Shown here piece after piece: positions 16,491-56,449 of a stretch of 64,000 nucleotides of DNA (the stretch's first letter is position 1; each line of letters opens with the position of its first letter). Origin of the DNA: Loxodes magnus. Lineage: Eukaryota; Ciliophora; Karyorelictea; Loxodida; Loxodidae. Location of the stretch: the NCBI GenBank assembly GCA_946699065.1, contig CAMPDV010002457.1:1-64000 (forward strand). The letters run 5' to 3'. A program made the position numbers and the translations under genes. Under the pieces are notes generated by a model. The model searched no databases. It was not told the DNA's origin and saw only the letters and a program-made list of their open reading frames with translations.

Positions 16491-16496
16491 TTATTC

Positions 16497-17309
16497 AACT
16501 TCATCTCGAAATCCTCCACTTTCTCACAATATTGTCAAGTCCTCCCGATATCATTATCTATTGTCAACACTCAATATATTGGAAGATATTGCTTCTGTAT
16601 GCCCTTATAAAGTTTGTATACACTCGCCCTTATCAAAGTTCCATATCTTGGTTGCTCTGTCATATGAACCAGAAAATAAAACACTTGAATCAGCACTTAA
16701 CTAAATACTACGTACAATATCTGTATGATCTTGAAGAGTACGAATACACTAAACAGTTGAGAAGTCCCATATCTTAACTGAATTGTCACAAGAACATGAT
16801 ATGATATATCTATTATTCTTAAATACTATTACCGGCAAAACATTGTTTGAATGTCCAGAAAGAGTTCGCACAAGTTGACCAGTTTGGAAATTTCAGATCT
16901 TTATGGTTTCGTCAGCAGATGCTGATATAATATAGCTAGAGTCCGGGGAGATTACTACCGAGTAAATTGAAGAAATATGTCTCATTAAGATTCTTTAGAG
17001 AGAACCATTGTGGAAATTTCAGATCTTTATCAAATATTCAGAATATCCTGAACCTGATACAATTCAATTCAGGTTACTTGATATAACTATCGATAAAGCA
17101 TCTGAGGCGTGACCAGTGATGACTTAGTCTAAAAGTATTAAAGAAATACCTTTACTTTGGTCATAACTGATCTAATTTATAAGTTTTTAGTAACATAAAT
17201 TGGTCAGAATTTCATACTTAAAATGAAGAAGAGATATTTTCCCTAGGATGTGGTTTTTTGCTCTAAGAAGTTTTCTTAAAAAAATACTTTTAGTACATTA
17301 CTTTTCTTT
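16497..17309 (-). CDS. WD40-repeat protein (left arm copy)
   Basis: Mirror of the right-arm gene at 55630-56442, where the domain evidence is given. The WD40 blades are readable at about 16500-17130 on the minus strand. Substitutions between the arms are few in the region compared. As in the right arm, neither a start ATG nor a dedicated stop can be fixed. Predicted beta-propeller scaffold. Confidence 0.75.
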
Positions 17310-36409: not shown

Positions 36410-39400
36410 ATAAGTCATAAAAATAGGGACAGTAAATGTTAGGGGAGTTAGAAGTGCAAATGGGGCACATATCAAATTCATTGATTCAAAAAATCATCGT
36501 ATAATGGCAATTTAAGAGATTTAGATTAAAGATTAAAAGATATGTGTAATATAGCAGGATATAGAAATAAATATATTCTATATTAGAAACGACATATTTA
36601 AGGAGATTAGAGAAATGTAGAATGAAATCAACCAAATGACGCTTTTTAGAGGAGCGAGAGTGATGGTCATTGAAATAATGAAAAAACTGACAGTAATAAA
36701 TATATATACACCTGTGGCAAGAGACAGCTAATAATATGAGACATTCTATAACTTAGTGATCGAATTCAAACTATAAGCAACAGAAAAAAGACTTAATGTA
36801 ATGATCATAGGAGATTAAAATGTGCACATAGAGTAATGGTTACCGAAGAAAACAAACTCACCTGGTAAGAGAATGCTACAGTTCATGGAACAGAATAATT
36901 TAATGTGCCTAGACCCATTGAAATAGGTACTTTTGTACACTAAAACAATGAATATAGAATAGATTACTTTTTAAATGAAGATATAATGAGAAAAATTGTG
37001 ATAAAAAGTGATTTTTATTATTCATACGTAATAGGAGATTATAGACCCGGTATAATAAAGGAAAAGATTGCTAAAGAAGTTAGAAAACCATTAAAAATAA
37101 CAAAAATAAATTACCTCTATTAAAGAAAAAGAGATCTACAAAAAATTTGAAAGATTTATGCAAGAAATGTCATAGAAGAAGAAATTGATAACTACTAAAC
37201 GGTACATAGACTTATAAATGATGAAAGAAAAAGACATAAGATATAAGATATAAGAAGGAGTTTAAATGGTATGTACAACAGTTAAAATATAAAATTTAGG
37301 ATATTTAAATACTCAGAAGCAACAAAATAATGTAATAAAAAATTCAGAAAACGTAGCAAACAAATAAAATAAAGGATAAAGAACAACGAAGAAATAAATG
37401 AAAATCAATAAAGCTAGAAATATAGAGAATATCAAAGAGTAAGACAAAAATAATTTAATCAAGAAAAAAAGATAAAAAAACTAACTTAACCTATTTATGG
37501 ACAACGTAAATAAAGGAATCCTGAAAGAAATGTGGAAGAAACTAAAAAGCCTGCTTAATAGAAAAAATAATTAGTGAGTACCCTTATCAAAAGAAGATGT
37601 TAAGACTTTCAGGGACGAATGATAGCAGTTATATGAAGATGGCGATAATATGATACTAAATAAATTATAAAGCAAGAGACAAATAATGATAAATGAATAT
37701 GAAATTTGAGAAAACATTAACTAATTGGAGAAATAAAAGCACCAGGACCTGATGAAATATAAGTAGGAGCAATTTTAATAGGCGGGAAAAAATCAATTGA
37801 AGTAACTCGAAAAATAATAGCTAAGAAGATTTAAGAGGGAGTAATACCTTAGGAGATGAAATAATAATACATAAAATTAATATAAAAAAAAGGAGGATAG
37901 ACGAACCCGATAAACTATAGACCAATCTCTTATTGAATCATGCTTTAAAAATTGTAGACACTTGAGTTTTCTAGTCAATTGTAAGGATATCTACATAATG
38001 ATGAAAGCGAATATTAATATGGTTTCAAAAAAGGTAAGTCATGAGACTATGAATCTTCAATCTAAGAACAGTATAGGAATAATCAATGCGGAACAAAAAA
38101 GATGTTTTCGTAATGTTTGTTAATATTAAGAAAGATTATGAATCAGTGTAAAGAAGAAATATGAGAAATCCTAAACAATCTAAAAGTACAGGAATAGATA
38201 ATTAAACTTCTAGAAAACTTCTTCAGCGAAGAAGAAATTAAACTGAAATTTAATGATTAAATAGCAAAATCATTCGCGACAAATAAAGGGCTAAAACAGG
38301 GAAGCATAGCGTCGATGAGATTATTTAGCTTGATAATAGCAAACTTTTCCATAGCTTGGAAGATTAAAAGCTAGGAATTACGATAGACTATAAAAATGAA
38401 GAGGGATGAACATAAGAAATATATGTAGGATGTTTTGCATATGCAGATAACCTACCCTTAATAAGTGAATGGGAATAATTAGAGGAAGTAATAGAAAATT
38501 TAACCTAATGGGCAGAAAAGATAAATTGGAAATTGCAGATAAAGCAAAATGAATAGTGTGAAAATCAGCAGAAAATAGTAACTGAGAAAGTATTGGAAAT
38601 ACTATTGAGATGGGAAATTTATGGATCGAAAGAGTTACGACCTTTTAGTACCTAGGTCATATAATAGAAGAGAACATCAGTTTTGAAAAACACATGGAGC
38701 TAGACTAGAAGCAGCATAAAAATGCATGAATATTGGAAAAAATAACAATGAATAAGGGATTAACACCATATAATGAAGAATAATGATAAAATCCTTCGTA
38801 AGCTCAGTTTTCAGTTATGGGACAGAAGTGATCTCATATTGCGAATAATTTGTAGGAAAATAAATAATGGAGAAATTAGAAATATTATAGAGAAGGTCTT
38901 TACGAATAATCATAGATACCCCTTTTTAAGTGCAAAATGAGATGTTAGAACATGAATTGCAGTTTATGAAATTTAAACATTATCTATGACAAAAAATGTT
39001 GAGATTAAGAGGCAAATTAATAGGAAACTAAAGAAAAAAGTAGACGGAATAATGATCGACCTAATTAAAGAAGAGAATTTTATATATGAAAAATATTGCA
39101 CAGCAATAAAATTAGAATTAAAAGTTGAAGACAAAGAAATATTTATAGATGATGCAGCAATTAAAAAGGAAAGAAAAACACTAATCGTGTAATATGAGAA
39201 TATAGAGTATACGTAGAAGATAGAGAAAGAATGGAGTAAATGATAGCAACATTACAATATAGAAAAATATATTTTGATGAATATGTAGTAGGACCACCCT
39301 ACTACCCAAGATAGAATAAAAATAGAGAAGAAGAAATAAGTTACATATTTAGAATAAGAACGAGATGTAATAGAAGATAGGATTGCTTAAAGAAAAACAT

Positions 39401-40061: not shown

Positions 40062-40984
40062 ATGCTAAGTGAAAACTAGTGCATTAAAATCCTTTACCTT
40101 AGAAAAATTTTAAGATCAATCTAATGAATTAAGATAGCTAAATTCTATCTAAATTTGGAATAGGAGTTGTTAAATATGAAGTCTGCTCAAATCTAAGCTA
40201 TCTAAAAAACTTTACAGATATAGTTACTTTTAAATATAATTCAAGTATAAGAAAGAACTATAACATTAAAGCCAAACAATTTTAAGAAGAGAAAATTGAT
40301 GCACAAAGCCTTTATTATCATGCCACTTCAATAGAATAAATAACTTCGAATACTTTAGTAATATCTGGCTCACATAGTATAGAATGAAAGAGATTCGATA
40401 TAAACTCCAAAGATAAAATTGAGAATTATTAGATGTAATTCCAAAGATACTTCCACAAAACTAAATTCAATAAAAGAAACTTAATTTACATTCTATCTGG
40501 AACATATGACGATGACATAATTGAGTGTGAAGTTTTTGATATAAAAAGCAAAAATTTTAAAAGCATTTAGCCAATTAAAAACCCAGTAAATCTTTTTGGA
40601 TGCGATTACAGTTATTAAAAAATTTATATTTTTGGAGGTTGAAATATTAAAAAAGGAGGTCAAGATACAATATAGGTGTTCGATTAAAGAAGAAACGAAT
40701 GAATTATATGTGATCAAGTAATAACAAGAAAGGTATAAACTTCTGCTATTTTCAATCCTTAAATAAAATCTTATCTTATTTATTCTAATCTAAATCCTAT
40801 AGATACTTAGATATTCGATTTTAAAACAATATAGGTTAAAGGTTAAAAATATCCAGTGAGTACTTATAATGATAATACTTAGCCAATATGAAGTGGGAAT
40901 CTAGTTTACTAATACAGAAGTGATGATTCACTGTTAAGTTACGATTTAAGAAGTGAAATGTGGACTAAACTTTGAGAAAGATAA
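40062..40984 (+). pseudogene. Kelch-repeat protein, copy K4' (spacer, right side, frameshifted)
   Basis: It aligns with the intact copies from ATG to terminal TAA but is 923 bases long, and one base is missing near codon 25 where the others read AATGCAAACAAG-like sequence. The C-terminal blades are well kept (for example NEW, QPIWSGN and SEMWTKLW, with several Trp as TGA). It lies inside the right inner edge of the palindrome. Confidence 0.6.
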
Positions 40985-52788: not shown

Positions 52789-53709
52789 ATGCTTAGTCAC
52801 AACTAGTGCATTAAAATCCTTTACCTTAGAAAACTTTTAAGATCAATCTAATGCAAACAAGATAACTAAGTTCTATCTAAGTTTGGAATAGGAGTTGTTA
52901 AATATGAAATCTGCTCTAATCTACATTAATATAACTTTGCAAATATAATTACTTTTAAATATAATTCAAATATAAGAAAGAACTATAACATTAAAGCCAA
53001 ATAATTTTAAGAAGAATAAACTGATATTTAGAGACTTTTTTATAATACCACTTCGATAGAATAAATGACTTCAAACGATTTAGTTATATCAGGATCAAAA
53101 AATATTGAATAAAAGAGATTTATTATATATTCTAAAGATAAAATTGAGAATTATTAGATGTAATTTCAAAGATACTTTCATAAAACAAAATTAAATAAAA
53201 GAAACTTAATTTATATATTATCTGGGAGATACGACGATGACATAATTTAATGTGAAGTTTTTGATATAAATTTTAAAAGTTTTAGAAATATTTAGCCTAT
53301 AATAAATCCAGTAAATCTATTTGGATGCGATTACAGTTATTAAAAAATTTATATTTTCGGAGGTTGAAGTAATAAAAAAGGAGGCCAAAATACAATATAG
53401 GTGTTCGATTAAAGAAGAAACGAATGAAAATTATGTAATTAAGTAATAACAAAAAAGGTATAAACTTCTGCTATTTTCATTCCTTAAATATAGTCTTATT
53501 TTATTTTCTCTAATCTAAATTCTATAGATACTTAGATATTCGATTTTAAAAAAATATAGGTTTAAGGTTAAAAATATCCAGTGAGTACTTATAGTGATTT
53601 TACTTAGCCAATATGAAGTGGAAATCAAGTTTATTAATACAGAAGTGATGATTAACTATTAAGTTATGATTTAAGAAGTGAAAAGTGGACTAAACTTTGA
53701 GAATGTTAA
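52789..53709 (+). CDS. Kelch-repeat protein, copy K3 (right arm, intact reference copy)
   Basis: A single frame of 307 codons from ATG (MLSHNQCIKILYLRK) to a TAA followed by an AATAAAGAA signal. Kelch marks: I-Y-I-L-S-G near residue 155; I-Y-I-F-G-G-W then N-T-I-Q-V-F-D-Q-R-R-N-E-W near residues 200-222; a strand ending T-Q-I-F-D-F near 260; and L-L-S-Y-D-L-R-S-E-K-W-T-K-L-W at the end. The Trp of G-G-W, N-E-W and Q-P-I-W are TGA, exactly where kelch blades prefer Trp. No BTB or F-box domain is visible. Beta-propellers of this kind bind protein partners; the partner is unknown. Downstream flank about 80 bases is shared with other copies. Confidence 0.8.
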
Positions 53710-55629: not shown

Positions 55630-56442
55630 AAAGAAAAGTAATGTACTAAAAGTATTTTTTTAAGAAAACTTCTTAGAGCAAAAAACCACATCCTAGGGAA
55701 AATATCTCTTCTTCATTTTAAGTATGAAATTCTGACCAATTTATGTTACTAAAAACTTATAAATTAGATCAGTTATGACCAAAGTAAAGGTATTTCTTTA
55801 ATACTTTTAGACTAAGTCATCACTGGTCACGCCTCAGATATTTTATCGATAGTTATATCAAGTAACCTGAATTGAATTGTATCAGGTTCAGGATATTCTG
55901 AATATTTGATAAAGATCTGAAATTTCCACAATGGTTCTCTCTAAAGAATCTTAATGAGACATATTTCTTCAATTTACTCGGTAGTAATCTCCCCGGACTC
56001 TAGCTATATTATATCAGCATCTGCTGACGAAACCATAAAGATCTGAAATTTCCAAACTGGTCAACTTGTGCGAACTCTTTCTGGACATTCAAACAATGTT
56101 TTGCCGGTAATAGTATTTAAGAATAATAGATATATCATATCATGTTATTGTGACAATTCAGTTAAGATATGGGACTTCTCAACTGGTTAGTGTATTCGTA
56201 CTCTACAAGATCATACAGATATTGTACGTAGTATTTAGTTAAGTGCTGATTCAAGTGTTTTATTTTCTGGTTCATATTACAGAGCAATCAAGATATGGAA
56301 CTTTGATAAGGGCGAGTGTATACAAACTTTATAAGGGCATACAGAAGCAATATCTTCCAATATATTGAGTGTTGACAATAGATAATGATATCGGGAGGAC
56401 TTGACAATATTGTGAGAAAGTGGAGGATTTCGAGATGAAGTT
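55630..56442 (+). CDS. WD40-repeat protein (right arm copy)
   Basis: At least five WD40 blades from about 55808: ITGHASDILSIV...LIKIWNF, HISSIYSVVISPDSS...TIKIWNF, LSGHSNNVLPVIVF...SVKIWDF, LQDHTDIVRSI...AIKIWNF, and LQGHTEAISSN. The W of the first two K-I-W motifs is TGA, of the next two TGG. T-G-Q-C and T-L-Q-G-H use TAG and TAA for Gln. The frame stays open upstream to about 55630 with plausible sequence (NFLEQKTTSQGKISLL) but no ATG. The last blade looks broken off. A beta-propeller scaffold; catalytic or signalling partners unknown. Confidence 0.85.
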
Positions 56443-56449
56443 GAATAAC

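Follow-up and report, generated by a model that had tools for sequence, protein, structure and literature searches.

How are the three codons that ordinarily end translation read in the genome of Loxodes magnus, a karyorelict ciliate? The question is raised by the window, by which we mean the whole 64,000-nucleotide stretch of DNA analysed here, where WD40, kelch and LINE sequences carry such codons in frame. The original prediction, made from the letters of the window, held that all three stop codons have been reassigned, TAA and TAG to Gln and TGA to Trp. These amino-acid meanings are borne out below by two conserved proteins, Prp8 and dynein. One refinement is needed: TGA also terminates in the Prp8 and WD40 families and is therefore dual rather than fully reassigned. 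The genome containing the window comprises 705,730,643 bases on 7843 contigs.

Under table 27, blades 1-4 of the WD40 gene run in a single frame on the forward strand (55810..56370) that includes TGA at 55873, 55918 and 56044 and TAA or TAG at 55813, 55942, 56188, 56236 and 56332. The Trp of the blade motif K-I-W-N/D-F had been described as TGA in one pair of blades and TGG in another, and this is what the forward strand carries: TGA in blade 1 (55918..55920) and blade 2 (56044..56046), TGG in blade 3 (56170..56172) and blade 4 (56296..56298). The last blade (SGGLDNIVRKWRISR; 56391..56435, forward strand) is frameshifted with respect to blades 1-4, and directly after it on the same strand stands a TGA (56436..56438) that would be the stop. 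A second copy of the gene, identical at 629 of 636 bases, is found on the reverse strand (16494..17129) in the opposite arm of an inverted duplication. Both window copies have the frameshift in the last blade, which is absent from related copies on contigs C324 and C132, and we reject the idea that the window gene is intact. The inverted duplication is large, with two arms of about 22 kb (8965-30709 and 41722-64000) that are 98-99% identical, one of them reaching the window end; the LINE sits in the central part, about 11 kb long.

The WD40 gene lies in a high-copy repeat, present at 16494-17129 and 55810-56445 of the window and at at least 17 other sites in the genome. Genome-wide, at least 62 pieces match the gene: 19 are 97-100% identical to it, a number that includes both window copies and thereby the query, and 43 are more distant; these counts come from 40 scored candidates and are lower bounds. 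Four lineages were compared, namely the window and three diverged copies on C324, C1545 and C132. At the four K-I-W sites the codon is TGA or TGG in 16/16 cases (7 TGA, 9 TGG): blade 1 has TGA and blade 3 TGG in all four lineages, blade 2 has TGA or TGG in the related copies, and blade 4 has TGA in one related copy. Upstream of the frameshift, TAA/TAG alternate with CAA/CAG in five of the eight variable columns. The diverged copies hold two more TGAs, in one copy each, at variable columns 54 and 96, which are without Trp. In C324 and C132 the last blade is in frame and the reading frame stays open to its end, whereas C1545 carries a separate frameshift; a TGA right after the last blade is present in all four lineages. 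With TGA and TGG at the K-I-W sites and TGA behind the last blade, it follows that the WD40 family uses TGA in both meanings, and the family with its diverged copies is better evidence than the window copies alone. Crude dN/dS values under table 27 range from 0.44 to 0.76 in four comparisons among diverged copies and reach 1.76 between the two window copies, the latter from 7 differences; constraint on the paralogues is thus weak. Long arrays of WD40 repeats also occur on G000:C1503, C119, C620, C9, C272 and C1832, where many spacings are multiples of 126 bases and some repeats have an in-frame TGA.

Scoring the window gene against the Pfam WD40 model (PF00400) with 9 of the 20 residues, plus X, entered at TGA places Trp on top at 115.1 bits, followed by Y (112.0), F (110.4), L (105.3), R (104.5), Q (103.8), X (102.6), C (102.5), S (100.6) and G (100.5). 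Of 20 propeller models that were listed whichever of W, Y and F was entered, 11 score highest with W and 9 with Y, F or G, and PF25172 gives Y 148.2 vs W 107.2. Since W tops just 11/20 models, we do not accept this score test as proof. In an alignment with solved WD40 proteins, the three codons being masked as X, the TGAs at 55918 and 56044 stand opposite Trp, the TAG at 56188 opposite Gln and the TAA at 55942 opposite Leu, and the codons at 56236 and 56332 face Ala or Thr in one solved protein and Gln in another.

The kelch genes present the same codon usage. The motif on the forward strand at 53359..53427 reads GG-TGA and N-E-TGA, and other copies are found near 40634, 62142, 19571, 10810, 31158 and 3101. 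The claim that the Trp of these motifs is TGA in copy after copy is confirmed for the Trp following GG, which is TGA in 7/7 copies with N-E-W, and largely for N-E-W itself, which has TGA in five and TGG in two. Two further GGW occurrences of similar look (28411 and 44012) also use TGA; three other GG-W matches, in differing context, use TGG. When six copies are aligned (the seventh, at 3 kb, being frameshifted, was omitted), TGA is exchanged for TGG in one variable column, for AGA in another and for TAA in a third, and four columns have both TAA and CAA. The variable TGA columns are weak evidence for TGA as Trp, and with a single TGA/TGG column the kelch genes are rejected as proof of the code.

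The LINE, too, has the codons that had been reported for it, TAA GAG at the endonuclease Gln-Glu (36513..36518, forward strand) and TGA at 38162 as the Trp of the reverse-transcriptase motif E-I-W-E-I-L (38156..38173, forward strand). This TGA is kept in 19 of 20 other genomic copies sampled from the 149 listed, yet when the three TGAs of this LINE stretch are entered as W and aligned with human L1 ORF2p they stand opposite Leu (the E-I-W-E-I-L site), Trp and Met, and a protein search with the LINE returns no relative at E <= 0.001. The motif cannot serve as proof on these grounds. The window LINE moreover has a frameshift that separates its endonuclease part from its reverse transcriptase. 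Alignment of all three families with homologues had been proposed as a check on the code; it gives Trp at the two K-I-W TGAs and Gln at one TAG of the WD40 gene, and Leu at the LINE site in human L1, and the kelch signal, from six aligned copies, is weak. The agreement of the three window families had also been offered as an argument for the code. The TGA and TAA sites are as claimed, but their strength as proof is not: taken by themselves the genes of the window argue weakly, since frameshifts affect the LINE, one kelch copy and both copies of the WD40 gene.

The decisive test lies outside the window, in Prp8 and a dynein heavy-chain stretch. Prp8 is an essential gene. It was located by Pfam PROCN on G000:C59 (L085, 654-7517), where its 2288 codons, among them 19 TGA, 61 TAA and 20 TAG, run in one frame with no break, and its product is 69-74% identical to the 120 proteins listed. 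The three codons were masked as X, and we considered columns identical in 9 non-ciliate proteins; a dynein heavy-chain stretch (L086, 1290 codons) was treated with columns identical in 10. Both reference sets were hand-picked to span a wide range of taxa, out of 120 listed proteins in each case, ciliates being excluded. At the invariant columns of Prp8, TGA corresponds to Trp in 16/18 (2 Tyr), TAA to Gln in 29/33 (2 Leu, 1 Asp, 1 Arg) and TAG to Gln in 7/8 (1 Ser). Ordinary codons agree with the invariant residue in 1236 of 1410 columns; because these sense codons also disagree, in 174/1410, we read the two Tyr and the five Leu, Leu, Asp, Arg and Ser exceptions as real substitutions or misalignment. 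The dynein stretch gives TGA as Trp in 2/2, TAA as Gln in 4/4 and TAG as Gln in 1/1, with ordinary codons agreeing at 296 of 311 invariant columns. Pooled, the two proteins assign TGA to Trp in 18/20 columns, TAA to Gln in 33/37 and TAG to Gln in 8/9 (41/46 for TAA/TAG together), and Glu occurs at none of the 66 invariant TGA, TAA or TAG columns. Comparison of these two genes with their homologues thus agrees with the original prediction, and each of the three codons has the within-gene meaning given by table 27.

The codon after the last residue of Prp8 is TGA. As judged from sequence, TGA would thus also act as a stop in two gene families, one being Prp8, from one gene, and the other WD40, from 4/4 lineages. 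The last coding TGA of Prp8 is codon 2208 of 2288, one gene being too few to judge depletion.

Genome pattern searches, complemented by ARAGORN on fetched loci, revealed tRNA genes that match these meanings. Genes with UUA and CUA anticodons, which had been named as something to look for, are both present, and each has a Gln-like body, although ARAGORN labels the former 'Stop' and the latter 'Pyl'; the CUA pattern has 80 matches, 78 of which carry that anticodon. A tRNA-Gln(UUG) gene is present as well. The reading of TAA/TAG as Gln and of TGA as Trp thus holds in unrelated conserved genes of this genome, which also has the matching tRNA genes.

For tryptophan, a tRNA-Trp(CCA) with a 4-bp anticodon stem has 124 genomic matches; among the 100 listed, 48 are on C67 and 52 on C148. 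In these 100, bases 27 and 43 of this main form are unpaired (A-C or U-C); in the usual tRNA numbering these positions make the top pair of the anticodon stem. The C67 copies are tRNA-Trp(cca) according to ARAGORN, and the C148 copies are known from the 32-base arm alone. The arms form tandem arrays at G000:C67:482309-491189 and from G000:C148:155450 onwards, with spacings of about 187 and 241 bases. The 5-bp form is rare, with four matches, of which three are on C110 and the fourth, an altered one, is on C7736; one sampled copy, L042 (G000:C110), looks intact. It lies near a tRNA-Met gene whose acceptor and T arms are nearly identical to its own, a likeness that suggests shared ancestry or conversion. 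A UCA anticodon was seen in 0/129 matches of the Trp pattern (the 124 CCA 4-bp matches and five others), a pattern that accepts CCA and UCA with one mismatch and may miss other forms of tRNA-Trp. We tentatively raise the idea, to which we would give somewhat less than an even chance, that the ordinary tRNA-Trp has almost wholly given way to the short-stem form (four vs 124 matches), which would be the main Trp tRNA for both UGG and UGA.

Tandem arrays are also formed by tRNA(UUA) genes (G000:C214:232607-237600, spacing about 275), tRNA(CUA) genes (G000:C130:557655-566500, spacing 588) and tRNA-Asn genes (G000:C55:902385-907109, spacing 261). Because tRNA-Asn, with 243 pattern matches, is arrayed too, such arrays are general in this genome, and we reject the notion that they are a special feature of the tRNAs that read the code.

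Three loci carry eRF1 domains. L010 is eRF1 itself (NCBIfam TIGR03676, 396.9 bits; three eRF1 domains), L009 is pelota, and L011, about 35 kb from L010 on G000:C196, is nearly identical to it. L010 retains the NIKS motif, preceded by RAQ with the Q itself a TAA codon, and the YxCxxxF motif reads FLCENTF. Human eRF1 has TAS ahead of NIKS.

Other codes could be read into parts of these data. If only TAA and TAG were reassigned (to Gln, table 6), TGA would simply be a stop and its in-frame occurrences would represent pseudogene decay, with which the frameshifts of the window WD40 and LINE copies and the WD40 dN/dS values (0.44 to 0.76, and 1.76 from 7 differences) are in keeping; but Prp8 keeps its frame over 2288 codons despite 19 TGAs, and at 16 of the 18 invariant columns where TGA occurs the residue is Trp. 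This shows that TGA is not a stop only, and this code is scarcely credible. We give equally little credence to a code like that of Blastocrithidia (table 31), with TAA/TAG as Glu and TGA as Trp. It can draw on one variable kelch column in which TAA alternates with GAA/GAG, and has against it the invariant TAA/TAG columns of Prp8 and dynein, where Glu occurs in 0/46 and Gln in 41/46, as well as the resemblance of the UUA and CUA tRNAs to the tRNA-Gln(UUG) of the same genome. A Condylostoma-type code (table 28), in which each of the three codons is sense and also stop, is a shade less remote and still highly improbable: no observation here favours it, both families with placed ends, Prp8 and WD40, end at TGA, no TAA or TAG terminator was seen in these two, and PMC11441545 describes UGA as the sole stop.

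Based on the above data, we consider it nearly certain that the Loxodes magnus genome uses NCBI table 27, in which UAA and UAG encode Gln and UGA encodes Trp or stop. We infer which tRNA reads each codon and how context decides as follows. UAA and UAG would be read as Gln by the Gln-like tRNAs with UUA and CUA anticodons. Inside a gene, UGA would be read as Trp by the tRNA-Trp(CCA) with its 4-bp anticodon stem, as published work on this type of tRNA leads us to propose. Close to the transcript end, eRF1 would win over the tRNA and termination would ensue, as has been published for karyorelicts.

That one codon should stand for an amino acid and for stop was unexpected when first described, and the window provides an independent confirmation of the published case from raw sequence. 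Its main importance is for annotation, because only table 27 allows the genes studied here to be translated in full. Our modest addition is an inventory of tRNA genes, in which the short-stem tRNA-Trp far outnumbers the ordinary ones found. Should the proposed replacement prove true, a 'suppressor' would be the cell's main tryptophan tRNA, serving UGG and UGA. The code was thus correctly seen and interpreted, and is already known.

Seah et al. 2022 is reportedly a primary source for the karyorelict code. A 706-Mbp macronuclear assembly of Loxodes magnus has been published (PMC11441545), and that paper gives table 27 as the code of Loxodes, UGA being the sole stop and also Trp when far from the poly-A tail, and reports that coding TGA is depleted just upstream of the stop. 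According to PMC4967479, UGA is the ambiguous codon in Parduczia, and TAA and TAG terminate too in Condylostoma. Of the two likenesses that the original prediction had drawn, to karyorelicts and to Condylostoma, the former therefore stands (table 27, PMC11441545) and the latter needs refining, Condylostoma also stopping at TAA/TAG (PMC4967479). PMC13092985 and PMC12005148 describe TGA as Trp in Blastocrithidia with a tRNA-Trp(CCA) whose anticodon stem has 4 bp, and cite Swart et al. for a 4-bp-stem tRNA-Trp(CCA) in Loxodes; PMC12153298 gives TAA/TAG as Glu in Blastocrithidia, with TAA also a stop. Copy numbers of the two tRNA-Trp forms in Loxodes were not found in the portions of the open-licence literature covered, supplements excluded.

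Compared with these systems, the code described here has TGA as Trp and a tRNA-Trp(CCA) with a 4-bp anticodon stem in common with Blastocrithidia (table 31), and differs from it in that TAA/TAG there are Glu and TAA is a stop. It is alike to Condylostoma (table 28) in the sense meanings Gln, Gln and Trp; TAA/TAG also terminate in Condylostoma, whereas here TGA alone was seen to do so, in two gene families. The short-stem tRNA-Trp(CCA) of Condylostoma, Blepharisma and Loxodes has the same 27/43 mismatch as that seen in the 100 matches listed here, with no UCA in 129, and in the present genome it amounts to 124 matches, those listed all being in two arrays. With the karyorelict code (table 27) of Loxodes and Parduczia we found no difference: in both, TAA and TAG are Gln, and TGA is Trp or stop.
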